A DNA stretch of 45,923 bases from a virus, in IMG/VR virus record IMGVR_UViG_3300036838_000040, positions 1-45,923 of that record. One strand, written 5' to 3'. The translations under genes were made by a program, and so were the position numbers. Positions 1,094 through 30,793 of this stretch are shown in pieces; positions within the stretch are counted from its first letter, which is position 1; the number at the start of each line of letters is the position of its first letter. The notes beneath the pieces are model-generated. The model searched no databases and was not told the origin of the DNA. It saw only the letters and a program-made list of their open reading frames with translations.

Positions 1094-4000
1094 ATGGCCC
1101 TCACCCTCGATCATCTGGCCCAGGCCATCTACGGACGCCCCTCGTTCAACGCGGCGGAACCGTGGCAGCAGAGCACGATCATCCGCTTGTCGGGGACGCC
1201 CAGCATGCCCACGCTGAATCCGAGTGTCCTGAACTACACGCCTGGGCAGGGCGTGCCGGGACCCTCGCAACTGATGGCCAGCACCCAGCAGCCCCGGCTG
1301 CCCCCGATGCGGCGTCCGTTGACGCCGGTTGCTCCGACGCTGGGCGGCCAGCCGCCCTCGACGGGGATGCCGGTGCAGGGTCAGGCTGGCACCTTTGGGC
1401 CCCCGCTGGGCCCGCAACTGACCCCGGAGCAGGAGGCCCGGCGGGATGTCACCGCGCGGCAGATGTTCCAGGGACGGCCCTACACGGAACTGAGTCCACC
1501 TGAGCAGGCAGAGGTGGACCGGGTGTTTCCCGGGATCTGGAACATCGAGCAGCAACTGCAGCAGCGTCGGATGCAGGAGCTGATGCCGCCGCCCACTCGG
1601 ACGCCCGGGCCGCCCGCTGGGTCCGTTCCGTGGCCGCTCGGGTTCAGCGAGGAGATCCTCGGCCCTCCGTCTCCAGCGCACGAGGTCCTTGGTCCCCCGT
1701 CTCCGCCGCCACAGATCCCAGGGTTCGGCGAGATGCGGCCACAGGCGATCCGTCCGGGTGAGGCAATGGGCCCAACCGCTGTGACGGGCCGCCCACAGAT
1801 TACTGCCGCCGATACCGCGAGGATCGACGCCCTCGACACCATGGCCAAGCACCTGTTCGGCGTCTCGTACTACGCCACGCACCCCACGGGCGAATCCATC
1901 CTGACCCCGGAGCAAGGTCAACTCGTGCGGGTGATGGTTGGCCTCTCGGGTCATGTCCCGACGCCGCAGGTCCCCAAGGAAGGCGAAGTGCAGATCGGCG
2001 GCTTCCCCACCTATCCACCGCCGAAACTCTCGGAGCCCGACTTCCAGGCTATGCTGGCGGCTCGGCTGCAGGGGTTGCAGAGGGCGGCTGCGCCGTCACC
2101 AGCGGGGCCCGCCGAGTTTCCGACCGGCAAGGGTACCTCGCCGATGCTGCAGGCGCTCTTGGCGGCGCAGGCGGCTCCACCAGCACCGGGGCCAGAGACG
2201 CCCCTCGCGCCTCTTCCCGCTGGAACGGCCATGGACTACATCCGGCGAGGGACGCTGCCAGCGTGGGGCTCGGTGCCGTTCACGACGCTGGGCGGGCCCT
2301 ACACGGCTCTGGCGCGACCGGAGCCAGGGGTGGATCCACTCGGCGGTCCACCAGGTAGCACGGCGCGCTTCATGGAGCTTGGGCAGCGGAACCGCGCGGC
2401 CATGGAGCCGCCGGTGGTGCCGGGGTTGGAGGATTACTTGGCGTGGCAGCGGTCGCCCGTGCCGTGGGAGACCAACTGGCCTGAGGTAGCCCCTGGAGGC
2501 ATGATCAGCTACGTACCGACTCCGACTCCGGTCCCGACGCCAGCGTGGCCACCCGGCTTTCGCAGGGCCGGAGCGATGGGTGCTCCAGCCGTGGCCCAGC
2601 CGCCTCCTGTGGTCCCGCCTGTCGAGCCCCCGGCTTCGCCGGGCGAACCCCAGATCACCGGCTTGCCGACGACAGGGATGGGCCCGCTCTTTCCACCTCC
2701 GTCTCCATCGTGGGAGACAGGAGACTGGACGGCCTTCACGCCAGACACTGGGGCACCGGTTGGTGGGATCTCGCATGGACCGGGTACGCCGGTTGGTCTG
2801 ACGCAGTCGAGCCCGGTGGCTGGGTTGACTGCTCAGCAGACGTTTACGGTGCCGCCTGACACGGGCCCACCCGCTCTTCCTATTCTGGGATCGATTCCAC
2901 CCGCGCCAATGGTGACCCCTCCGGGCGACACAGTGACGGCGGCGCCGCCTGAGCCTCCGCCGGGCACGCCGCCGCCTCCCCCACCCTCACCTGCTCCTCC
3001 ATCGATGCGGCACACCACCACCATCTACGAGGAGCCCGGTGGGGCAGCGAGGCCCGTGCCCGTGCTGAGCCCCATGCTCGAGTTCGCCTCGCTCATCTCG
3101 CGAGGCCCCCAGGGCAACCCGGTGCTGAACATGATGCTCGCGGTGAACAAGCAGCGGCAGGAGGATGCCTACCGAGAAGAGCAAGCGGCGTTGCTGCGCC
3201 AGCACCGGATGATCGAGGAAGCCCGGCTCAAGCACGACATCGAGGAGAGCCGCCGCAAGGAGAAGCGGGAAGCCGCCTCCGACGAGGAACGAAATATCGA
3301 GAACCTCGCCAAGATGGGCCTGGACCTGACGAAGAGCCTTAATGAGACGGCTCGCCGGCGGGGCTTTGAGATCCTGCAAAAGACGAAGAGACTCCCGGCG
3401 GACGAGGACCCGGCGTTACTGGCAGCGGATCCTGATCTGGGCTTCGGGAATACAGACGTCGGGCGGGTGGCGAGGGATAAGTTTGTCGCGGCCACGGAGG
3501 CGGGAACGCCCATCTCGAGGGCGGACGCCATTACGCGGGCCCACCGGGAATTGCGACAGCAGACCAACGTGGATCAGCTCGCCGCCGGATTGCGGGAGGT
3601 GAACCCGAAACTAAGCGAGGCCGAATCCATTCTTCAGGCAGAGCGGATGCTGGCCGGGGCTCGCTTGAATCCCACGCCGTCGCTGGCGGAGCGGCTTGCT
3701 CAGTTGCCGCCTCAGGAGAAAGAGGAGATCCTCAGGATCCAGAAGGAAATCGCGGAAGCCGGGGCCACCAAGATCCAGATGCCGAGGCCGCTGCCGACCG
3801 AGATCCTCCGCGAGGCCATCGCGCTGAAGACGACGGCCCAGGAACTGGCGGCGGCTGCCGAGTTATTCGACCCCTCGTTCGTGGGAACGTGGGCGAATGT
3901 CAAGCAGTGGTTCGGCAAGGCCGCGGACATTGCAGGCATTCCCGTCTTCAAGGAACGGCGGGCATTCATCGACCGCTGGATAAACGCGATCTTCAAGCTC

Positions 4001-4366
4001 AAGGCGATCATCATGCAGTCCACTCGTACGACGGCTGAAATGAAGGACTTCGCGCGGGCCGTGCCTGACCCGAGCGAGTCCACCTCGCTAACGGAGTTTG
4101 CGTCAGCCGCGGCCGCCCTCATTGACCGAACTATTACCGAATTGCATACGATGCCTGACCTCCTCGTGCAGTCGGGCTATACCGACATCGGCTTCGCCGA
4201 CGAGATCGTCGCACTGGACCGGGCGCGGCAGAAGATTGCTCCACTGGCTCCCTCCCAGCTCATCGCGAGAGAGGAATGGGACGAATTGATACGGATGGGA
4301 AGGACGCCCGCCCAGATCCGCCGTGAAGGATTCCGGGTGGGACCGTCCGCTCGGCCAGGGCTCTGA
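1094..4366 (+). CDS. Very large Pro-rich putative internal virion protein
   Basis: A 1090-residue protein. The first 640 or so residues are extremely Pro-rich and low in predicted order (long PPP and PPSP tracts near residues 600 to 640). From about residue 680 there is a charged, helical region rich in Arg, Glu and Lys (coiled-coil-like, about 685 to 770), then a mostly helical C-terminus. The start follows the previous stop by one base (TAG C ATG). Its stop overlaps the next start (TGATG), which indicates translational coupling. I do not recognise a family. Length, position after the tail genes and composition suggest an ejected or internal virion protein; this is inference only. Confidence 0.75.
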   Translation: MALTLDHLAQAIYGRPSFNAAEPWQQSTIIRLSGTPSMPTLNPSVLNYTPGQGVPGPSQLMASTQQPRLPPMRRPLTPVAPTLGGQPPSTGMPVQGQAGTFGPPLGPQLTPEQEARRDVTARQMFQGRPYTELSPPEQAEVDRVFPGIWNIEQQLQQRRMQELMPPPTRTPGPPAGSVPWPLGFSEEILGPPSPAHEVLGPPSPPPQIPGFGEMRPQAIRPGEAMGPTAVTGRPQITAADTARIDALDTMAKHLFGVSYYATHPTGESILTPEQGQLVRVMVGLSGHVPTPQVPKEGEVQIGGFPTYPPPKLSEPDFQAMLAARLQGLQRAAAPSPAGPAEFPTGKGTSPMLQALLAAQAAPPAPGPETPLAPLPAGTAMDYIRRGTLPAWGSVPFTTLGGPYTALARPEPGVDPLGGPPGSTARFMELGQRNRAAMEPPVVPGLEDYLAWQRSPVPWETNWPEVAPGGMISYVPTPTPVPTPAWPPGFRRAGAMGAPAVAQPPPVVPPVEPPASPGEPQITGLPTTGMGPLFPPPSPSWETGDWTAFTPDTGAPVGGISHGPGTPVGLTQSSPVAGLTAQQTFTVPPDTGPPALPILGSIPPAPMVTPPGDTVTAAPPEPPPGTPPPPPPSPAPPSMRHTTTIYEEPGGAARPVPVLSPMLEFASLISRGPQGNPVLNMMLAVNKQRQEDAYREEQAALLRQHRMIEEARLKHDIEESRRKEKREAASDEERNIENLAKMGLDLTKSLNETARRRGFEILQKTKRLPADEDPALLAADPDLGFGNTDVGRVARDKFVAATEAGTPISRADAITRAHRELRQQTNVDQLAAGLREVNPKLSEAESILQAERMLAGARLNPTPSLAERLAQLPPQEKEEILRIQKEIAEAGATKIQMPRPLPTEILREAIALKTTAQELAAAAELFDPSFVGTWANVKQWFGKAADIAGIPVFKERRAFIDRWINAIFKLKAIIMQSTRTTAEMKDFARAVPDPSESTSLTEFASAAAALIDRTITELHTMPDLLVQSGYTDIGFADEIVALDRARQKIAPLAPSQLIAREEWDELIRMGRTPAQIRREGFRVGPSARPGL

Positions 4367-6537
4367 TGCCTCCGCTAGGGCGGCCGCCTACCGTTGCTGA
4401 GGACTTGGAGCGGATCCGGCGGGAGAAGCGGGAGAGAGAACTGGGGAAGACTTCCCCGACTGGCCGGCCGGTGGAGCCGGGCAGCGTCGCCGACGACATC
4501 ATCAAGATGCGGGGGCAACAGGGGCAACAGCCTGCAGCAACCGCTCCGCCCTCGTGGGCCGAGTGGTGGTCCCAAGGGATCGCTCCCGCTGACATCCCGC
4601 TCGGCATCCAGCGCGGGCTCGAGAGAGGGGGTCCGATTGCGGGCGGTGTCATTGGTGGAATCATTGGGGCTCCGCTGGGTCCGTTCGGCGTGGCCGGCGG
4701 GGCTGGGTTGGGCTCGGCACTGGGGTATCAACTTCCCAACATCACCCGGCCCTTCCTGACCGGTGAGCCATCGCCCACTCTTCCGGAAGCTGCGCTAGGA
4801 GCCGCCCAGGAGTTCGGAGCTGGAGTAGCCGGTGAAGGGATTGGGACGGCCACGGGGAAGGTAACCCGCTGGGTCAAGGACTGGCGGCCCTTCCGTACCG
4901 GAGGCCCGCTTGATGTCGCTACGCAGAAGGTTCGAGAGACCGCCGCCCAGACTCAGGAGTACCTGAAAAGGGGCGGCTCGTATCTGACGACGGCTCAGCA
5001 GCTTGGCACTCAGGGGCCCCAGCGAGTCGAGGAGTTCGCCAAGGGCGCGTTCTTTCCATCGAGGAAGTACGCGGCGCTGCGAGCGGAGCAGCCCCAGGTC
5101 ATCGAGAAGCAGATACGGGAGTACGTCAATGCGGTGGGCACCCAGATGGGGGACGAGGGCCTGGGGCAGTTGCTTCTGGATGCCTTGCAAGGGAGTCGGG
5201 GCACGATACGGGGGGCGACTCGCCGAGCATTTCGGGAGATCGACCGGCTGGCCACCGGGGTGCAGGTCGATACGACCTCGTTCGTCAACGCCGTGGAAGC
5301 CGCGATTAAGCGTGGGGGAAAACCTGGGGGCCCGCCCGTTCTGGATACGCTCAAAGCCGCGGGGATTCCTCGAGAGGCCTATGAGTTGCTGGGCAAGACC
5401 CGGCGAGGAGCCGTGGAAACGATCAAATCTGCCAAGTTCTCCGATGTGCTGAAGCTCCGTGAGCAACTGGAAGCGGTGGCTGAGCGAACCCCCGTCACGT
5501 TGAAAGAGCAGGAGATCGTCCAGACAGCCGGGGACTTGGTGAGCAAGCTGAACGAGGCCATTGACGCGGCCGGGCGTCGGTTGCCGGCCTCGGCTCAACT
5601 CGAATACCAGACGATCCAGAGCCTTGGCGCGGGTGGTCGAGCCGGACTCGACAACACCACGATTCGAGAAGTAATTACGAAGCTCCGGGACCGCCCGGAG
5701 AAGTACGCCGACTTGCTGCTCCAGCCCAAGAACTCCACCGCACTGCAGCGGATCAAGGCGGCGGTCAGCCCCGAGGAATGGCAGAGCGTACAGGCGGGGC
5801 TCAGTCAGGAATTCCTGCGGCGGGCAACCAACCCCTCGAGCCAGTTGCTGGTGGGTACCGATCTGATGAGGCAGCTTCACCAGCTCGGCCCCGAAACAGT
5901 GCAGGCAGCCTTCGGGACGCAGGCGGCTGGGTTGCGGAAGCTCGCGGAGGCGATGGAATTCGTGCAGCGTGAATCCCAGCTAGAGGGAGCCGACCGTGTG
6001 CTGGTGCGGATCGGGCAGGGCCGGGCCATCTCGGAGGCGGCTGGAGCGATCGGCACCCTGGCTCCATTGGCGGGGGCAAGTATTGGGTGGACCCCGGCCG
6101 GGTTGACCCTGCTGCTGTCGCCAAAGGGGCTTGGATGGCTCTTGGCCAATCCCAAGGTGATCGACTGGCTGACGGAAGGGCTCAAGGGATCGGCTCGCAG
6201 CCCCGAGGTACAACGAAAGCTGGGACAGGTGGTGGCGCACGTCACCGCGTGGCAACTTCAGCAGCAGCCAACGGCCCCGCCCACGAGCCCAGCGGCCGCA
6301 GGTCAGCGCCAAGGGTTAGGGCTACGCGGGCAGCCGGCGGCTCCGGTCTCGCCGCGTGAGCAGGCCCGGCAGCAGGCCATCGGGACGATGGACAAGAGCC
6401 TGCAGGCGATGGAGGCCTACAAGCAGGCGGTCGAGCAGTACCGGGCGGGGACGCAGCCAGCGCCGGCCCCCCTGCCCGTGCCCCCGCTTCCCAATCTCCA
6501 GCAGACGCCGCTGGTGCCCGGTCCTGCCTTTCCGTAG
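4366..6537 (+). CDS. Putative internal virion / DNA-ejection protein with Gly-rich hydrophobic segment
   Basis: 723 residues, translationally coupled to the preceding gene through TGATG. A charged N-terminus (about residues 10 to 30) leads into a Gly/Ala/Pro hydrophobic stretch (about residues 85 to 125, with repeated GG motifs) that could insert in a membrane. A long helical body follows, then a Pro/Gln-rich tail. Phage ejection proteins often combine such a glycine-zipper-like segment with helical bodies; that is family knowledge, and the assignment here is by analogy and position. No lytic transglycosylase or peptidase motif was seen. It is the last of the long late genes before the metallopeptidase gene. 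Confidence 0.75.
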   Translation: MPPLGRPPTVAEDLERIRREKRERELGKTSPTGRPVEPGSVADDIIKMRGQQGQQPAATAPPSWAEWWSQGIAPADIPLGIQRGLERGGPIAGGVIGGIIGAPLGPFGVAGGAGLGSALGYQLPNITRPFLTGEPSPTLPEAALGAAQEFGAGVAGEGIGTATGKVTRWVKDWRPFRTGGPLDVATQKVRETAAQTQEYLKRGGSYLTTAQQLGTQGPQRVEEFAKGAFFPSRKYAALRAEQPQVIEKQIREYVNAVGTQMGDEGLGQLLLDALQGSRGTIRGATRRAFREIDRLATGVQVDTTSFVNAVEAAIKRGGKPGGPPVLDTLKAAGIPREAYELLGKTRRGAVETIKSAKFSDVLKLREQLEAVAERTPVTLKEQEIVQTAGDLVSKLNEAIDAAGRRLPASAQLEYQTIQSLGAGGRAGLDNTTIREVITKLRDRPEKYADLLLQPKNSTALQRIKAAVSPEEWQSVQAGLSQEFLRRATNPSSQLLVGTDLMRQLHQLGPETVQAAFGTQAAGLRKLAEAMEFVQRESQLEGADRVLVRIGQGRAISEAAGAIGTLAPLAGASIGWTPAGLTLLLSPKGLGWLLANPKVIDWLTEGLKGSARSPEVQRKLGQVVAHVTAWQLQQQPTAPPTSPAAAGQRQGLGLRGQPAAPVSPREQARQQAIGTMDKSLQAMEAYKQAVEQYRAGTQPAPAPLPVPPLPNLQQTPLVPGPAFP

Positions 6538-6616
6538 TATCCTGTAATCCGCGAGTGTGCTGGTTGGCTGGGCCCTCCGGGGCTTGGCCCGGTGGTCATC
6601 TTCTGGAGGCTCTCCG

Positions 6617-7114
6617 GTGTCCGAGCTCATCCTTACCCTTATCGCGTGGTTGTCTGCCCATAGTCCGTACGTGCTGCCTGCGACCCCACCCGCGGTGATC
6701 ACGGTGTCCCATGCGGACCTCTGTAAGCTGGCTGGGCTCCGTTCCGGCTGTCCGTATGGGGGGCTGTTTCACCCCGGGTACGGAGCGATCTACGTGCGGG
6801 AGGATTTCCCGCCGACCAACCGGGTGCATCTGTCGGTGGTGCTTCACGAGCTGGTGCACTGGGGGCAATGGCTGACCGGGACGGGCCGCCCATTGGACTG
6901 TCAGCAGCGGATTGCGTGGGAGCGGGAGGCGCAGTCACTGCAGGCGGAGTGGTTATACGGGTACCCGGTGTCCGTCACCGGGTCGTGGGTGACCCCGCCG
7001 ATCCCGAATCAGCCGGGCGTGCTGGGACCCACACACACACAGTGGCGGGTCAGGCTGCCGACGCTGGAGGAGTGTGAGGCGGAACTCCGGGGCGTCTCGG
7101 CTCAGAAGCGCTGA
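6617..7114 (+). CDS. HELVH zinc-metallopeptidase-like protein
   Basis: From the GTG at 6617, which has GGAGG 7 bases upstream (6605..6609), the protein is 165 residues; a longer frame reaches 6557 but has no ribosome site. The first 20 residues are hydrophobic, like a signal peptide or anchor. HELVHWGQ at residues 77 to 84 is the classical HExxH zinc site, and a WEREAQ segment at about 101 to 106 supplies a plausible third ligand Glu. This HELVH...EREA layout is like small bacterial/phage putative metallopeptidases (DUF6647-like). Role unknown; being last in the late operon and facing a small membrane protein, it could act in lysis or on the cell envelope. The enzyme call rests on the motif alone. 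Confidence 0.72.
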   Translation: MSELILTLIAWLSAHSPYVLPATPPAVITVSHADLCKLAGLRSGCPYGGLFHPGYGAIYVREDFPPTNRVHLSVVLHELVHWGQWLTGTGRPLDCQQRIAWEREAQSLQAEWLYGYPVSVTGSWVTPPIPNQPGVLGPTHTQWRVRLPTLEECEAELRGVSAQKR

Positions 7115-7116
7115 GC
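7100..7116. terminator. Hairpin between convergent operons
   Basis: GCTCAG (7100..7105) and CTGAGC (7111..7116) form a perfect 6-bp stem with a 5-nt loop. It overlaps the stop codons of the + strand metallopeptidase and the - strand membrane protein. No U-run follows, so it may be only a weak bidirectional terminator. Confidence 0.35.
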
Positions 7117-7206
7117 CCACCATACGCTGAGCCCGATCAGCAGGCACAGGGCTGCCAGGACGATCCACGCCCATTCCATGGGTCGGTTCGGCTCGGGAGG
7201 CGGCAT
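7102..7206 (-). CDS. Small single-pass membrane protein (34 aa)
   Basis: The ORF starts at ATG 7206 inside TGATG, overlapping the stop of the upstream gene, so it is translationally coupled. After a short Pro-rich polar N-terminus (10 residues) there is one strong transmembrane helix (residues about 11 to 30, Trp/Leu/Ile/Ala-rich) and a short basic end. It is the last gene of the minus-strand replication operon and its 3' end overlaps the metallopeptidase gene tail to tail by 13 bases. Size and topology would fit a holin/pinholin accessory, but nothing proves it. Confidence 0.55.
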   Translation of the reverse strand: MPPPEPNRPMEWAWIVLAALCLLIGLSVWWAQRF

Positions 7207-7709
7207 CACGGCGTCACGGGCGTGGGCGCCCCACGGAGCCGCTGTGCGCGTGCTGATGGCCCCTGGGCGGGACTTTGGTGGGTAGCCAAGGGGGGGATAG
7301 CGGGGGCAGCGGGATCGTGGCGTGGAGGGGCTCCGAGCGGGGCACTGGCGCGCCTGACCTGACGGCGGGGGATCCGGTGCTGGTCCTCGTGGGTGGTGAC
7401 GGGCTGGTCCTCATGCCGCCAGTCGGCGAAGCGGGCCCGGACGTATTCCTGCTCCATGAAGGTGAGGGCCTTGACCATCTCCCGCCGGAACATGGACCAC
7501 TGCTCATCTAGGGTGCCGGTGCGGCGGATCCAGATGGTCCCCGCGAAGACGCCGTCGGCGGGCTGGTTGGGTTCCCACTTGGAGCGGTAGGGGTACCCGG
7601 CCCCGAGGTACTGCATCTCCACCCATTCCGTGGGTCCCACCCAGACCCGTTTGGGGAGGCGCTGGCCGCTCAGGCGATTTGCGTACTTGGGCCAGCGTCG
7701 GGGTGCCAT
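7206..7709 (-). CDS. Hypothetical phage protein
   Basis: 167 residues; no family recognised. The N-terminal 110 residues look ordered (mixed aromatic and charged, with WVEMQYL and WSMFRREMVKAL segments), while the last 55 are Pro/Ala/Arg-rich and probably disordered. The frame overlaps the upstream gene by 40 bases and its stop overlaps the next start (TGATG), so it is part of the polymerase operon. Confidence 0.65.
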   Translation of the reverse strand: MAPRRWPKYANRLSGQRLPKRVWVGPTEWVEMQYLGAGYPYRSKWEPNQPADGVFAGTIWIRRTGTLDEQWSMFRREMVKALTFMEQEYVRARFADWRHEDQPVTTHEDQHRIPRRQVRRASAPLGAPPRHDPAAPAIPPLATHQSPAQGPSARAQRLRGAPTPVTP

Positions 7710-8091: not shown

Positions 8092-8331
8092 TCAGGACTC
8101 CGTGGCGGGGAACATCGTGGACTGGGCGGGGCCCCGCTGCTTGGCCGACACCCGGGCCTGCTTGAGCGCCAGCTCCACGAACTCCCGGTGCTGGGGGGTG
8201 AAGTGCCAGCAGTCGGGTCCGATGGCCAAGTCATACCCGTGGTGGGCCACCGTGATCTCGTAGCCCCGCCGGGCCATGATCGCTTGCCATTCTGGCAATG
8301 CGGCCAAGCTTGGATGCAGGAGGATCTTCAT
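8092..8331 (-). CDS. Small hypothetical protein downstream of DNA polymerase
   Basis: 79 residues with a beta-alpha N-terminus (MKILLHPSL) and several His/Trp residues (GPDCWHFTPQHREFV). The ATG overlaps the stop of the polymerase gene (ATGA), so the two are translationally coupled. A conserved-looking single domain, but no family is recognised. Confidence 0.65.
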   Translation of the reverse strand: MKILLHPSLAALPEWQAIMARRGYEITVAHHGYDLAIGPDCWHFTPQHREFVELALKQARVSAKQRGPAQSTMFPATES

Positions 8332-9344
8332 GCGGGGGGGCCCAGGACTTCCTTCCAGGAGCCGGTCAGGCGGAGCCGGTGCCCGCCGATGTCCCAGTCC
8401 GCTTCCACGATCTGCCGCACGGGCTCCAGAATAGCATGGTCCTGGGGGACGGCGATCTTGGCGGCATCGTGGCTGGTGTAGGCCAAGATGGCGTCAGGAA
8501 AGGCGGTAAAGATCCTGATGAGCGTCAGGTTCAGGATGCCCGAGACCGCCCCTTGGATCATGTGATTCAACCCGATCTTCATTTGCTCTCGGGTGTCACC
8601 CAGCAGCAGGCGCTTGGCTCCCAGGAAGGTGCGTGAGTGACCGGTGCGGAGACACTCCGCCCAGACCTGCTCTTTCCAGGCCCGGAGCTTGGGCTTGGAG
8701 CGGAGGTAGGCCCGCCCGGTGGCCAGCAGTTCAGCCCGGGTGACGCCCAGTTCCTCCACCCCCTTGGCTTGGAGGATGGCGTTCTCGTCCATGCCATAGG
8801 CCAGCGCGTAGCGGGCGGTCTTGTACAGCCTGCGGCGCTTGTCCTCGTCGCCCTCCCACTGGTAGCGGGCCCGCCACTGAGCGGAGGCGTCGTCCCCGTG
8901 GAGGGCTTTGGTCAGCGTGGGCGGGAGATCCATCCCGAGGGCCCGGCAGGCGGTGATGGTATGGATATCGTGGCCCTGTTGGAAGTGGGCGAGGTCTTCC
9001 TCGTCCCCCGAGTACGCAGCCGCCAGCTTGGCTTCTATCGCATCGAAATCCCAGCAGATCCACTTCCACCCCGGATCGGGCCCCACGACGTCCCGGATGG
9101 AGCTGGGGAAGTTGGTCAGCGGGGGGTCAGTGGTGGACCAGCGGAGGCTGGCCTGGGTGGGCAAGTGGGTGGGGTGGACTCGCTGGACCTGGGTCATCGG
9201 GAGGATGTAGTGATTCAGGAGCTGGGTGGCCTCCGCATACTCGAGGCGGGCCTCCAGCACCTCGGAGGTAAAGCCCCCGAGCTTGGCCCGGCGGAGCGTG
9301 TCCTCGTCAATCGGGGTGGCGGTCTTGGCGTGGGAGCGGGGCAT
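8328..9344 (-). CDS. polA: DNA polymerase I (family A), palm/fingers fragment
   Basis: 338 residues carrying the polymerase core of a family A DNA polymerase. Visible motifs: the template/primer region ending in TNFPSS (residues 77 to 82), motif A DFDAIEAKLA (99 to 108, canonical DYSQIELR), motif B as K-TARYALAYG (175 to 184, the finger helix that contacts dNTP), the NHMIQG segment (260 to 265), and motif C SHDAAK (291 to 296). The usual HDE of motif C reads HDA here; the catalytic Asp is kept. The thumb and exonuclease lie in the preceding gene in another frame, with a 38-base overlap (9307..9344). The short N-terminal piece before motif A (about KTATPIDEDTL) is the normal continuation of the thumb ending in that other frame. 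So the polymerase is either split or joined by a +1 frameshift. Confidence 0.92.
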   Translation of the reverse strand: MPRSHAKTATPIDEDTLRRAKLGGFTSEVLEARLEYAEATQLLNHYILPMTQVQRVHPTHLPTQASLRWSTTDPPLTNFPSSIRDVVGPDPGWKWICWDFDAIEAKLAAAYSGDEEDLAHFQQGHDIHTITACRALGMDLPPTLTKALHGDDASAQWRARYQWEGDEDKRRRLYKTARYALAYGMDENAILQAKGVEELGVTRAELLATGRAYLRSKPKLRAWKEQVWAECLRTGHSRTFLGAKRLLLGDTREQMKIGLNHMIQGAVSGILNLTLIRIFTAFPDAILAYTSHDAAKIAVPQDHAILEPVRQIVEADWDIGGHRLRLTGSWKEVLGPPA

Positions 9345-10638
9345 GCCGTTTCACCCGCTTCGTGAGCCCCTCAATCGCATAGAGCTGGGTAGCCAGGTGT
9401 TTGGTCGATCCGAGATTGATCGTCCAGCCCAGGGCCGCCTGGGCCCGCACAGCGGCTCGTTTGGCCTGGGTGCTCAGCTCACTCGCCACCTGCGTGGCCC
9501 GCGCCTGGTTCACCCGGAGGCCGTGCCGGGTGGCCCGGTCGATGATGGGGACCAGTGGGTGCAGCTGGGTCCGGTAGACTTGGGCGGACAGGGGATCCCG
9601 GCCCAGCTCCTGCTGGAGGGCCTGCCAGACCTCCCAGGTGCCCCACGCGTCCGCCCCGGAGTAGACGATGGGAGCGGCCTTGGCCAGATGCTTCCAGCGG
9701 TTGGTGCTGGCGTAGAGCGAGCTCATGTAGTCGAGGTCATGGGGGAACCCGGCCCACAGCACGGCGTGGGCGTACATGATGTCCTCGTAGCGTGGGGTGG
9801 TGAGGCCCGTCAACTCCTTCAGGGACTGGTAGTCAGCCACGGCGTTCTGCATGATGAAGCGAGTGGTTCCATCCGCCTGGACGCCCCCCTCCCCGGCTTC
9901 CGTCACCTGGATATGCCCCGGCCACGCCAGTGAGTACCGGGTCAGCGTGCTCCCCTCGAACTCGGTGTCGAAGGCCACCGCCGGCTCGGTAATGGGACTG
10001 GCCAGCGGGCCGGTGTGGATCTCTGGAAGCGGGTGGGGCCAGCGGCCCCGTAGCAGCCGGGCCACCCGCCGCCAGTCATGCAACAGGGGAATCCGGAGCG
10101 ACGGCTCCCGCATGATCCGGGCGGGGTGGGCGGTGGCGAACACGGGGATCTCCCCCGGCGCTGGCACCCAGACGCTGGTGCGGTGCCTGGCGTGCGTGCC
10201 CCGCTGGGGCAGGAGCCAGCCCCGCCACTCACTCGAGGAGGGCTCCCCGGCGGTACTGAGCAGTGCATAGTCGCCCATCGACACCAGGTATTTGGTGCCT
10301 TCGGGGACCCGCCAGTGCCGCCGGCAGTGCGCCACCGCCTGCTTCAGCAGCGTAGAGCGGACCTCGGGGAGCTCGTTGGATCGCTGCCACCGGCACCGGA
10401 GCGCATTGCCCAGGCTGACGTCTTCCCGGGTGAGCCCCGCCTGGCTCATGTACTGGCGCTCCAGGGCCTGGCCCGCCGCGCCTACGAAGGGCTCTCCCGC
10501 GAGCTCCTCCTCCGCCCCGGGGTTCTGGCCCATCAGGAAGAGCGGGGCGTGCTCCCGTAGCCGGTCCGGGACGAAGGGCTTGGCTCCATCCTCTCGGAGG
10601 GGGCAGCCCTCACAGGCCGGGATGTCCCGGACTCGCAT
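9307..10638 (-). CDS. Uracil-DNA glycosylase / 3'-5' exonuclease / PolA thumb fusion protein
   Basis: 443 residues in three parts. Residues 1 to 205: family 4-like Fe-S uracil-DNA glycosylase, with CEGC (Cys9, Cys12), motif 1 GQNPGAEEELAGEPFVG (about 37 to 53), two further Cys (about 82 and 105) completing a probable 4Fe-4S site, and ATAHPAR (about 168 to 174) at the usual HPS motif. Residues 215 to 345: DEDD exonuclease with AFDTEFEG (motif I), an H/D-bearing motif II, and YSGADAWGTW (motif III, YxGxDA). Residues 350 to 443: start of the PolA thumb, ending abruptly where the polymerase gene begins in the next frame. It excises uracil and proofreads (inference from the domains). The last 12 or so residues (from RHAPLPRQ) look out of register with PolA, marking the frameshift point near 9340. 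Confidence 0.88.
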   Translation of the reverse strand: MRVRDIPACEGCPLREDGAKPFVPDRLREHAPLFLMGQNPGAEEELAGEPFVGAAGQALERQYMSQAGLTREDVSLGNALRCRWQRSNELPEVRSTLLKQAVAHCRRHWRVPEGTKYLVSMGDYALLSTAGEPSSSEWRGWLLPQRGTHARHRTSVWVPAPGEIPVFATAHPARIMREPSLRIPLLHDWRRVARLLRGRWPHPLPEIHTGPLASPITEPAVAFDTEFEGSTLTRYSLAWPGHIQVTEAGEGGVQADGTTRFIMQNAVADYQSLKELTGLTTPRYEDIMYAHAVLWAGFPHDLDYMSSLYASTNRWKHLAKAAPIVYSGADAWGTWEVWQALQQELGRDPLSAQVYRTQLHPLVPIIDRATRHGLRVNQARATQVASELSTQAKRAAVRAQAALGWTINLGSTKHLATQLYAIEGLTKRVKRHAPLPRQDRHPD

Positions 10639-20318: not shown

Positions 20319-21032
20319 TCAATCGCGCCAGAACTCCCGAAACCTCCCCGGCGCGAGCTCCGTATACCTCACCGTGTGCTGAATGTTCCGATGGCCGAGG
20401 TAGTGCTGGATCGCCCGCGTATCATGCCCATCGTTCGCCAGCTTGTACCCGCACGCGTGGCGCAGCATGTGGGGGTGGACCGAAAAGCCGAGGGCCGCCT
20501 CCTCGCCTGCCCGCGCAATGATCTTGCGGACGGCGGAGTCGCTCAGGGGCCCGCGCCGTTCGGTCGTGAACACGTAGGGGGCGGTACCGTTCTCACGTTG
20601 AAGCTTCCGGAGCGCCCGCAACTCGGGACCTCGAAGAGGATGGGTCGAGGGCACGCCGTTCTTGAGGCGAGCAACGTGCAGGAGTCCCTGTCGCAAGTCG
20701 ATCTGGTCCCAGCGCAGCGCCACCAATTCCCCCACGCGAAGGCCGTGGCGGTAGGCGAGCAGGATTACCGTCGCGTCTCGGTGCCCATGCCGCCCGACGC
20801 CGCCGGCGGCGGCCATTAGCGTCTCGACCTCAGACGGGGTCAGATATTCTCGCGTCCGACGGTCGCGGTTGGTCACGCGGCGGGGCGGTCGGAACCCCGT
20901 GCGTGGTGCGGCCGGTCGAACCGCCCGTAAGTGAGTCCCTTCGCCGCGGCGCCTCATCCGGCGTCCCGCTCCGTGGTGTGTCGGAGCCGTCACGCCGCCC
21001 AGCATGCCGCCGAGACTCACGGGCTCGGTCAT
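20319..21032 (-). CDS. Short FimB-like tyrosine recombinase
   Basis: 237 residues, essentially only the catalytic domain. First catalytic Arg in YRHGLRVGEL (about residues 93 to 102), Lys in LKNG, HxxR in HPHMLRHACG (about 186 to 195), His in YLGHRNIQ and the nucleophile Tyr in HTVRYTEL (about 218 to 225). The 55 N-terminal residues are Arg/Gly-rich and replace the usual core-binding domain, as in FimB/FimE-type invertases of similar length. A second, full-length integrase lies at 25542, so this enzyme more likely performs inversion, dimer resolution or excision. The 5' end overlaps the LPD29-like gene by 4 bases. Confidence 0.88.
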   Translation of the reverse strand: MTEPVSLGGMLGGVTAPTHHGAGRRMRRRGEGTHLRAVRPAAPRTGFRPPRRVTNRDRRTREYLTPSEVETLMAAAGGVGRHGHRDATVILLAYRHGLRVGELVALRWDQIDLRQGLLHVARLKNGVPSTHPLRGPELRALRKLQRENGTAPYVFTTERRGPLSDSAVRKIIARAGEEAALGFSVHPHMLRHACGYKLANDGHDTRAIQHYLGHRNIQHTVRYTELAPGRFREFWRD

Positions 21033-21870: not shown

Positions 21871-22048
21871 CTACGCCCAGCCTTGCGTCGCGGCGGGAAA
21901 CTTCCCGTAGACAAGGATATGGTCAATATCAGCTTGGATCTCGTCCTTGGTACCCCAACGGACCCGTCCGTTGTACGAGACGAACCAATCATTCCGACCC
22001 CCCATCCGGTTTTTGCAGCGTGAATCCTTTGTACGTATCTGTTGTCAT
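21871..22048 (-). CDS. Small gene apparently broken by a +1 shift at a G6 run
   Basis: From ATG 22048 the frame reads MTTDTYKGFTLQKPDGG and then stops soon after a run of six G (minus strand, about 21998..22003). With five G it would continue as RNDWFVSYNGRVRWGTKDE and so on to the stop at 21871, giving a coherent protein of about 58 residues. The downstream part also has its own in-frame ATG at 22005 (44 residues). Thus: sequencing error, true mutation, frameshifting at the G-run, or two starts. It follows hammerhead copy 1 by 15 bases. The GGAGAAAACCAT leader before ATG 22048 gives a good ribosome site. Confidence 0.55.
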
Positions 22049-22063
22049 ATGGTTTTCTCCATT

Positions 22064-22125
22064 GGCCATCATCAGGCCCGGGCCCTTACCCGGACGACGT
22101 CCCCGGCTCGGGGGACGTTTCGGCC
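22064..22125 (-). ncRNA. Type II hammerhead ribozyme, copy 1
   Basis: Read 5' to 3' on the minus strand: GGCC (stem II 3' half, 22125..22122), GAAA (22121..22118), stem III of about 7 bp closed by a short loop and ending in the cleavage triplet GUC (cleavage after C at 22096), stem I GUCCGGG/CCCGGGC with a 6-nt loop (22095..22076), CUGAUGA (22075..22069), one extra U, GGCC (22067..22064) pairing with the first GGCC. All core nucleotides of the hammerhead are present, open at stem II (type II). It sits in the spacer between two small genes and would cut the operon mRNA. Confidence 0.88.
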
Positions 22126-22129
22126 TTGG

Positions 22130-22336
22130 TTAGATACCGAGCTTGCCGATTACCTCTACCGTAGCGTTCAGTCGCCGGGCTGCATGTCGCCACGCCATCG
22201 CTAGCGTCTCATCCTGCCAGTTGGCGCGGATAAACTCTGATTTTTCCTGACAGATTCCCTCAAGAGCTCGTAGCACTGTCCGTAGCGTAGCTCCGTCGAC
22301 CATGCGTTCCAGATCTTCGCTCATCGTCGTAGTCAT
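22130..22336 (-). CDS. Small helical protein between two hammerhead ribozymes
   Basis: 68 residues from ATG 22336, with AGGAGG 12 bases upstream; an ATG at 22366 lies inside ribozyme copy 2 and is unlikely. Mostly helical: LERMVDGATLRTVLRALEG, then a WQDETLAMAWRHAARRL segment. No family recognised. The gene is flanked on both sides by hammerhead ribozymes, so its mRNA would be released as a separate piece after self-cleavage. Confidence 0.62.
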   Translation of the reverse strand: MTTTMSEDLERMVDGATLRTVLRALEGICQEKSEFIRANWQDETLAMAWRHAARRLNATVEVIGKLGI

Positions 22337-22357
22337 CGGTCTGCTTTGCCTCCTATT

Positions 22358-22420
22358 GGCCATCATCAGGCACGGGCCCTACCCGTGCGACGCCAGGCAT
22401 TTGAGCCCAGCGTTTCGACC
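22358..22420 (-). ncRNA. Type II hammerhead ribozyme, copy 2
   Basis: Minus strand: GGUC (22420..22417), GAAA (22416..22413), stem III of 8 bp (CGCUGGGC/GCCUGGCG with two G-U pairs) and triplet GUC (cleavage after C at 22389), stem I GCACGGG/CCCGUGC with a 5-nt loop (22388..22370), CUGAUGA (22369..22363), an extra U, GGCC (22361..22358). Compared with copy 1, stems I, II and III differ in bases yet keep pairing, while the core and the bulged U are identical: real covariation. It lies directly after the stop of the gene at 22425 and directly before the AGGAGG of the next gene. Confidence 0.88.
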
Positions 22421-22424
22421 TTGA

Positions 22425-22688
22425 CTAGCTCGCCTCCACGTTGTTGATGCGCCACCCGAGCAGTTGCTCGGCTTTGCTTACCTCGTCTCGGAGCATGGCC
22501 GCCATGTACTGTCGGATCGCCGGGTAACTGAGATTGGTTTCGTAGTCGCGAACTACCAGGGGCAACATCCCCATCAGATTCACAATCCAGGTTCGCAGCT
22601 GGATACACTCATCGCCCAATCGGTGGTATTCGTCTGCGGTCACACAGTAGTTGTGCCGATCTGTTGTCAGGCTCTGTCCGTCTGTCAT
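22425..22688 (-). CDS. Small hypothetical protein
   Basis: 87 residues from ATG 22688 (AGGAG nearby, start overlapping the stop of an 18-codon ORF). Predominantly helical: TADEYHRLGDECIQLRTWI, then a hydrophobic VNLMGMLPLVV segment, then helices with DEVSKAEQLLGW. The frame is open to 22790 but the upstream part has no ribosome site. Not recognised; first full gene of the leftward early operon. Confidence 0.6.
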   Translation of the reverse strand: MTDGQSLTTDRHNYCVTADEYHRLGDECIQLRTWIVNLMGMLPLVVRDYETNLSYPAIRQYMAAMLRDEVSKAEQLLGWRINNVEAS

Positions 22689-29519: not shown

Positions 29520-30793
29520 ACGGTGGTGAGCTTGCCCCGTCGGGCCAGATGCAGCAGCACCCGGTCATAGCACTGGCGGTAGGAGCTCTCCCGATTCCCC
29601 ACCCACTCGGGCCGATTGTTATTGTCCCGATGCTCCACCACGCACACGCGCACCAGATCGTCGATGACCTCTTCCACCAGTGTCTCGAGGGGAATGCGCC
29701 ACTGGAAGCGCATCCGGGGGAGATCCCAGTCCACGTTGGCCCGGAACCCGGCCAGCATCGGCATCAACCACCCACGTGGCACCCGATACGCCATGGTCTT
29801 GCCGATGAACGGGAGCGGGGTGTTCTTGTGCCCCCCGCTGCCCGCCCGCACCTTCGCGCCGGGACGATCCTTCATCCGGCCGAAGATGAACGACGCCCGT
29901 CGGGCCGCTTGGGGGGTGTGCAGGCTGATCAGGTCTGCTAGCGAGAGAATCTCGTGGACGTGGGGGATCAGGAGATGCGTGGGCGTCCGCGTGGTGGGCT
30001 GCTGGATGTCTTCCTTGAACGCATCCACCGCCAGGCGGGGCTTTCGATAGAGCGCGTACGGATGCTTCTCCTCGCTGTAGCGTTCACAGTTGAAGAGCTG
30101 GAGTGAGACGAGGACCTCCGGGATGTAGAGATCCCCCTTGTCTCCCTGGAAGTAGGAGATAGCCTCCTCGCCGGGCTTGCCACGGAGCTGGTCCTTGATG
30201 GCGTCGAACAGGCCCCGGAGATCATCGAGGCTGGGATCATCGACTTGCTTGGACCGGTTCAATCCCTCGGCAATGTCTGGCACGGCGGCTTCATCAATCC
30301 CCTGGAGGATGTGCAAACGGACGTAGGCCCGGTCCAGCGCCTGCAATTCATCCTCATCGGCATGCGTCACCGTATCTCGGATGGCGGCGTAGGTGTGCCC
30401 GCCGTTTACGATGCCATGTTGCTGGCGATGCATGGTGATGACGAGCTGGCTCTCCCCCGGCAGGAACTCCGCGGACTCCACCAGGAGATACATCCCCTGG
30501 TTCCGGACCGCCATATCTTCCGGGTCATCGGTGAGGGTTTTCTGAATCCCGGCGATCACGGGCCCCGTGAGCACGCCCGCCCGCGTGCGATTGGGCACTC
30601 GCGGATTCACCTCGAGGAAATCATCGAACTCGCCCGGGATATCGGTGACCTTTACGAAGCAGCTCCCGACGCTGGCCCGGAGTCCCGGGATCGCCTGTTC
30701 ATGATAGTGGGCGGTGGGCAGCACGAACCGTCGGGTCAACGTGGGTGCGTTAGGGGCACCCGCATTGTTCGTGGACGTGGTTAGGCTTGGCAT
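29516..30793 (-). CDS. AIPR-domain protein (abortive infection phage resistance type)
   Basis: 425 residues from ATG 30793, with GGGGAGGGG just before it. The middle region VRNQGMYLLVES, then HGIVNGGHTYAAIRD (about residues 127 to 141), then AEGLNRSKQVDDPSLDDLRG is the AIPR pattern (NQG..., IVNG.QT., N.Q..V). AIPR proteins are known from abortive infection and related phage-defence loci; the biochemical activity is not settled. First gene of an operon continuing into the coiled-coil protein, tas and the guide array, which hints at a joint function, or at a defence island carried by a phage. Confidence 0.75.
   Translation of the reverse strand: MPSLTTSTNNAGAPNAPTLTRRFVLPTAHYHEQAIPGLRASVGSCFVKVTDIPGEFDDFLEVNPRVPNRTRAGVLTGPVIAGIQKTLTDDPEDMAVRNQGMYLLVESAEFLPGESQLVITMHRQQHGIVNGGHTYAAIRDTVTHADEDELQALDRAYVRLHILQGIDEAAVPDIAEGLNRSKQVDDPSLDDLRGLFDAIKDQLRGKPGEEAISYFQGDKGDLYIPEVLVSLQLFNCERYSEEKHPYALYRKPRLAVDAFKEDIQQPTTRTPTHLLIPHVHEILSLADLISLHTPQAARRASFIFGRMKDRPGAKVRAGSGGHKNTPLPFIGKTMAYRVPRGWLMPMLAGFRANVDWDLPRMRFQWRIPLETLVEEVIDDLVRVCVVEHRDNNNRPEWVGNRESSYRQCYDRVLLHLARRGKLTTV

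Follow-up and report, generated by a model that had tools for sequence, protein, structure and literature searches.

What do two self-cleaving RNAs do on either side of a single small phage gene? The question is raised by a virus record from IMG/VR, whose 45,923 bases were analysed in full and are called the window here. Its genes include those for a terminase, portal, head, DNA polymerase, methyltransferase, Sak4-like protein and integrase, and a search of 50,697 phage records found no close DNA relative. Two short elements on its minus strand flank a 68-aa open reading frame (ORF) (Table 1) and qualify as a tandem array, being hammerheads of the same orientation on either side of a phage gene. 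The reading we consider probable is that both are self-cleaving hammerheads of type II layout from a compact phage subfamily, marked by an additional U at position 9a, and that they cut the transcript between genes.

The first-pass annotation had described two type II hammerheads in tandem with covarying stems, and sequence and structure bear this out. Both copies contain CUGAUGA, GAAA and GUC on the minus strand, as it had listed, and with them the conserved core of CUGANGA, GAA, an NUH triplet and the A15.1–U16.1 pair. Stems I and III are closed by loops and stem II is open, an arrangement visible in the predicted fold and in covariation among relatives, and this is the type II layout. Stem II pairs GGUC with GGCC in copy A and GGCC with GGCC in copy B, and stem I comprises seven Watson–Crick pairs in each. 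Stem III pairs in both copies, as claimed, over 9 bp (A) and 8 bp (B) when the conserved A–U and C–G pairs are included, a refinement of the 7 and 8 bp given at first. The hammerhead fold is the exact minimum-energy structure of both copies (z = −3.2 for A and −2.2 for B).

Covariance searches agree in part. The Rfam type II family (RF02276, Hammerhead_II; gathering cut-off 37 bits), named in the annotation as a check, recovers copy B at 40.8 bits and leaves copy A below the cut-off at 25.5 bits. An independent model (R2), built from 23 relatives with both window copies excluded, scores copy B at 53.3 bits (E 1e-13) and copy A at 49.7 bits (E 1e-12); the best remaining site in the window reaches only 12.6 bits, and neither a scan nor this model disclosed a third copy anywhere in the window. 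The match of both copies to the hammerhead fold is far beyond chance. Cleavage is predicted at 22389/22388 (copy A) and 22096/22095 (copy B), and the 5′ ends at 22388 and 22095 had thus been positioned correctly.

The bulged U reported for both copies is likewise present, but it is not the ordinary hammerhead part it was taken for: it is inserted where A9 would otherwise adjoin the first pair of stem II (CUGAUGA-U-GGCC), and it is in fact the most distinctive feature of the two copies. The standard hammerhead core has no insertion between A9 and stem II, and the window copies are core variants. Because type II is defined by layout and not by core insertions, the extra base leaves this assignment intact.

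Table 1. Positions of the two hammerheads, their parts and the neighbouring genes in the window
Feature	Position	Strand	Basis or remark
Hammerhead copy A, type II layout	22420-22358	minus	sequence, Rfam, independent model, fold
Copy A stem II, 5′ strand GGUC	22420-22417	minus	then GAA, then stem III
Copy A GUC and start of stem I	last base of GUC 22389; stem I starts 22388	minus	sequence
Copy A CUGAUGA	22369-22363	minus	sequence
Copy A extra core U (9a), between A9 and G10.1	22362	minus	sequence, family comparison
Copy A stem II, 3′ strand GGCC	22361-22358	minus	sequence
Hammerhead copy B, type II layout	22125-22064	minus	sequence, Rfam, independent model, fold
Copy B stem II, 5′ strand GGCC	22125-22122	minus	sequence
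Copy B GUC and start of stem I	last base of GUC 22096; stem I starts 22095	minus	sequence
Copy B CUGAUGA	22075-22069	minus	sequence
Copy B extra core U (9a), between A9 and G10.1	22068	minus	sequence, family comparison
Copy B stem II, 3′ strand GGCC	22067-22064	minus	sequence
Upstream ORF, 87 aa from ATG 22688	22425..22688	minus	longer GTG-start frame to 22790
Shine-Dalgarno AGGAGG of the 68-aa ORF	22354-22349	minus	3′ of copy A
68-aa ORF between copies A and B	22130..22336	minus	orphan; ATG 22336
Gene 3′ of copy B	21871..22048	minus	ATG 22048-22046, Shine-Dalgarno GGAG 22060-22057
Tyrosine integrase gene, further downstream	20319..21032	minus	phrog_216, E 5e-35

The pair is fitted closely between its neighbouring genes. 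The 68-residue ORF lies exactly where it had been annotated and its stop codon is 4 nt ahead of copy B; the stop codon of the 87-aa ORF is 4 nt ahead of copy A. Relatives of the 68-aa protein were found neither in PHROGs nor in annotated phages or viral contigs, and the 87-aa ORF has no PHROGs match. No promoter or terminator above chance is located near the pair, and the contigs with related integrases, all of them fragments, contain no hammerhead. The gene after copy B is seemingly frameshifted at a six-G run (22003-21998): the frame from ATG 22048 ends after 19 codons and the next frame stays coding-like, and the shift could be a sequencing error or real. Elsewhere in the window, two overlapping minus-strand ORFs (8328-9344 and 9307-10638) match consecutive parts of the DNA polymerase family phrog_17, so that the polymerase gene looks split or frameshifted, and a transposase-like ORF (28372-29568, minus; phrog_4285, E 8e-47) is situated between the early region and the terminase.

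The extra U is shared by many viral relatives. Scanning viral contigs for the U-insert form yielded 64 stretches for CUGAUGAUGGCC, about two-thirds of them with proper hairpins, and 55 stretches for the class with a GGUC/GACC stem II; with A, C or G in place of the inserted U, the two stem II classes gave 5 and 1 stretches. Scans without the insert gave at least 120 stretches per stem II class. After structural filtering and removal of duplicates, the insert type comprised 107 distinct sequences (104 with U, 3 with A) at 77 loci, and the no-insert type 261 sequences at 191 loci among the matches listed. A pattern scan of bacterial and archaeal genomes produced nothing with hammerhead structure among the matches listed. 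Stem II of the insert type covaries to GGUC/GACC beside the U, which shows that the base at 9a is genuinely additional. Standard pairs fill 99.5% of pair cells in the family alignment (A1), and two-sided changes occupy 129 cells versus 38 in shuffles. Since the filter required hairpins of at least 4 bp, stems I and III do not test pairing wholly independently of the selection; stem II, Rfam and the independent model do.

Copies with and without the insertion can stand side by side. In one three-copy array (L351, minus), stem I is identical between copies that have the extra U and copies that lack it, which suggests that the U was gained or lost between near-duplicates. An extra-U hammerhead of a four-copy array (L049:8469-8533, plus) has CCGAUGA for CUGAUGA, a U4C change said to lower in vitro activity in a viroid. 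We also considered, as a structural rule, that the extra U might be tied to a G–C first pair of stem I. In the first sample, mostly with a GGCC stem II, this pair occurred in 36/47 sequences with U versus 12/103 without among the matches listed (p = 6e-15); the GGUC class gave no significant replication (13/47 versus 17/117 distinct stems among the matches listed, p = 0.07). The rule was rejected and the link is treated as lineage history.

The site of the insertion bears on how the ribozymes might be controlled. A9/G10.1 is a metal site in hammerhead structures, and the extra-U variant is a natural experiment on it. An extra core nucleotide was reportedly described by De la Pena and Flores in 2001 for the plus-strand hammerhead of Chrysanthemum chlorotic mottle viroid, where it is said to lie between A9 and G10.1 and to be naturally an A. 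By that account the insertion place is the same, but the base is A and the hammerhead comes from a viroid and is not type II, whereas here the base is U and is spread over many phages. The U could make the ribozyme a slowed or conditional cutter, dependent for example on Mg2+ or another metal, and processing would then be regulated rather than constitutive. The insertion adjoins the metal site, the near-exclusive use of U as the inserted base points to a specific role, and other natural core insertions slow cleavage or impose salt dependence (PMC3088659). We nevertheless judge such control quite improbable, since the elements have no aptamer or variable extension, and copies with and without U occupy like sites, sometimes within one array, which argues for interchangeable function.

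Other features absent from the search patterns unite the relatives as a compact subfamily, with or without the insert. Stem I is 17 nt long in 95/107 insert-type sequences and in 231/261 no-insert sequences among the matches listed, and an A stands directly 5′ of stem II in 105/107 and, again among the matches listed, 254/261. Among first-sample stems of 17 nt, the 5′ side of loop I carries a U in all 40 of the insert type and in all 92 of the no-insert type among the matches listed. Pairing of loop I with the 3′ tail into a pseudoknot, a majority feature of published type II hammerheads although not a defining one (PMC3088659), reaches at least 4 pairs in 5% of the family versus 4–5% of shuffles. 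In viroid hammerheads, a pyrimidine on the 5′ side of loop 1 pairs with a purine on the 3′ side of loop 2 (PMC3185496). Since the invariant A sits at the equivalent place outside the open stem II, we infer that the subfamily docks by contact of the loop I U with the A just 5′ of stem II and not by a pseudoknot. Both window copies retain this U and this A; their stem I has 7 Watson–Crick pairs versus 6 in nearly all relatives, and the added pair may weaken docking.

The family is also poorly covered by current annotation. At the Rfam cut-off, 0/32 model hits are recovered at 17 mostly insert-type loci and 3/54 at 14 mostly no-insert loci, and most such arrays are consequently probably unannotated. 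The window copies share the open stem II and the CUGAUGA/GAA/GUC core of RF02276, and copy B passes its cut-off, unlike copy A and nearly all of these related hits.

The placement of the relatives is the evidence that bears most directly on function. In a sample of 99 hammerheads from sampled loci plus the window, the nearest upstream stop codon lies a median of 2 nt from stem II. It falls 0–20 nt upstream in 64/99 (control, 13%), and in a further 16/99 it overlaps the hammerhead by one base (of the type UAG then GCC). A Shine-Dalgarno sequence and start codon follow within 30 nt in 57/99 (control, 9%), and an open frame runs across the hammerhead in only 29/99 (control, 71%). Among the matches listed, 76 loci hold at least two hammerheads, 75 of these arrays being on one strand; the spacing has a median of 479 nt, and the largest copy numbers per record are 11, 9, 8 and 8 among the matches listed. 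Eleven no-insert hammerheads occupy about 5 kb of one record, nearly one per gene and all on one strand (L072, IMGVR_UViG_3300038412_000035, 2567-7561, minus); nine lie in the L427 record and eight each in IMGVR_UViG_3300032897_000001 and the L124 record. The first-pass annotation had called a tandem pair around one gene unusual, which these 76 loci and the prophage precedent (PMC3088659) do not support.

Such placement and arrays are the pattern expected of elements predicted to cut between the genes of polycistronic transcripts. The ribozymes could instead cleave and yet have no role in expression, as tolerated or selfish motifs spread by local duplication into the gene gaps where they do least harm. 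Copy number ranging from 1 to 11 per record among the matches listed would suit such spread, as would near-identical stems within single arrays (L351, L072), neighbour genes that are not common to the loci, and the orphan ORF of the window. We regard this as unlikely: adjacency to the stop codon and the ribosome-binding site is tighter than mere avoidance of coding sequence needs, and the core stays fixed while the stems diverge with compensatory changes, which indicates that activity is selected.

Processing between genes thus remains the preferred account. Because the relatives are confined to the gap that separates a stop codon from the ribosome-binding site that follows, release of the middle gene's mRNA by the predicted cleavage is the best-supported function. 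A co-transcript of the 87-aa gene, the 68-aa gene and the following genes would be cut at both predicted sites. With the end chemistry known for hammerheads in general, the upstream products would carry the stem III hairpin and a 2′,3′-cyclic phosphate at the 3′ end, and the downstream products a 5′-OH and the stem I hairpin at the 5′ end, immediately before the ribosome-binding site. Each gene would be expressed from a separate mRNA that has hairpins at its 5′ and 3′ ends and a decay uncoupled from that of its neighbours. Since cleavage in a type II layout would furnish each new end with a hairpin, mRNA processing together with stabilisation is favoured. The host enzyme RNase III cuts the polycistronic early transcript of T7 between genes and leaves hairpins at the new ends; the likeness lies in the intergenic cuts and the hairpins, but there the cutter is a protein and the end chemistry differs.

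The same two cuts would set both termini of a 293-nt RNA (22388-22096) containing the 68-aa ORF. RtcB joins a 5′-OH to a 2′,3′-cyclic phosphate, the ends that hammerheads produce, and a ligase of this type could in principle close the excised piece into a circular mRNA, for which the chemistry is suitable. Each end is, however, held in a separate hairpin rather than paired with the other, long arrays with many copies would be left unexplained, and circular products of tandem hammerheads were sought earlier and none was detected (PMC3088659), making circularisation very improbable indeed.

The evidence observed directly for intercistronic processing consists of sequence, fold, covariation across the family and family-wide placement. 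Cleavage of the window copies, the chemistry of their ends and an effect on mRNA stability or translation are predicted from these. Cleavage in vitro has been published for tandem prophage arrays, and for one of them in E. coli as well; 4 of 18 consensus hammerheads assayed in 2011 were inactive (PMC3088659). Counted against the processing account are the score of copy A below the Rfam cut-off, the 7-pair stem I, the orphan 68-aa ORF and the lack of a nearby promoter.

Tandem hammerheads around phage genes are already known and common in phages. Perreault et al. (2011, PMC3088659) found them flanking individual genes of prophages, in many cases close to integrases, and proposed that long phage transcripts are cut into gene-length mRNAs. 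The arrays described here resemble theirs, which comprise co-oriented hammerheads, type II included, flanking single genes or short blocks near integrases. They differ from the published type II consensus, which has a pseudoknot and no 9a insertion, in the extra U, the fixed 17-nt stem I of the relatives and the absence of a pseudoknot above chance. Bacterial hammerheads and twisters also cluster together and near phage genes, for a reason stated to be unknown (PMC10085705); the text consulted gives neither the order of stop codon, ribozyme and ribosome-binding site nor the U insertion.

What appears new, provisionally, is a variant that occurs widely and mostly lacks annotation, marked by a particular base inserted in the core and by a sharply defined position between genes. 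The 2011 paper (PMC3088659) does not describe the U insertion in its main text; judged against openly accessible main texts, the novelty of the U-insert subfamily is provisional. We put forward more tentatively, as a possibility we think somewhat doubtful, that these elements constitute a large phage subfamily of type II hammerheads, mostly unannotated, in which a U–A loop contact replaces the pseudoknot, a U is often inserted at the A9/G10.1 metal site with changed catalysis, and operons are generally punctuated into single-gene mRNAs. The placement rule recurs across numerous viral contigs, single records holding as many as 11 copies among the matches listed, and the idea of mRNA processing can accordingly be tested directly. 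Two ribozyme classes seem to be combined in a single phage operon: in L039, an extra-U hammerhead is preceded on its own strand, at a distance of about 1.3 kb, by a Twister-P5 that scores above the Rfam cut-off (2769-2828, minus).
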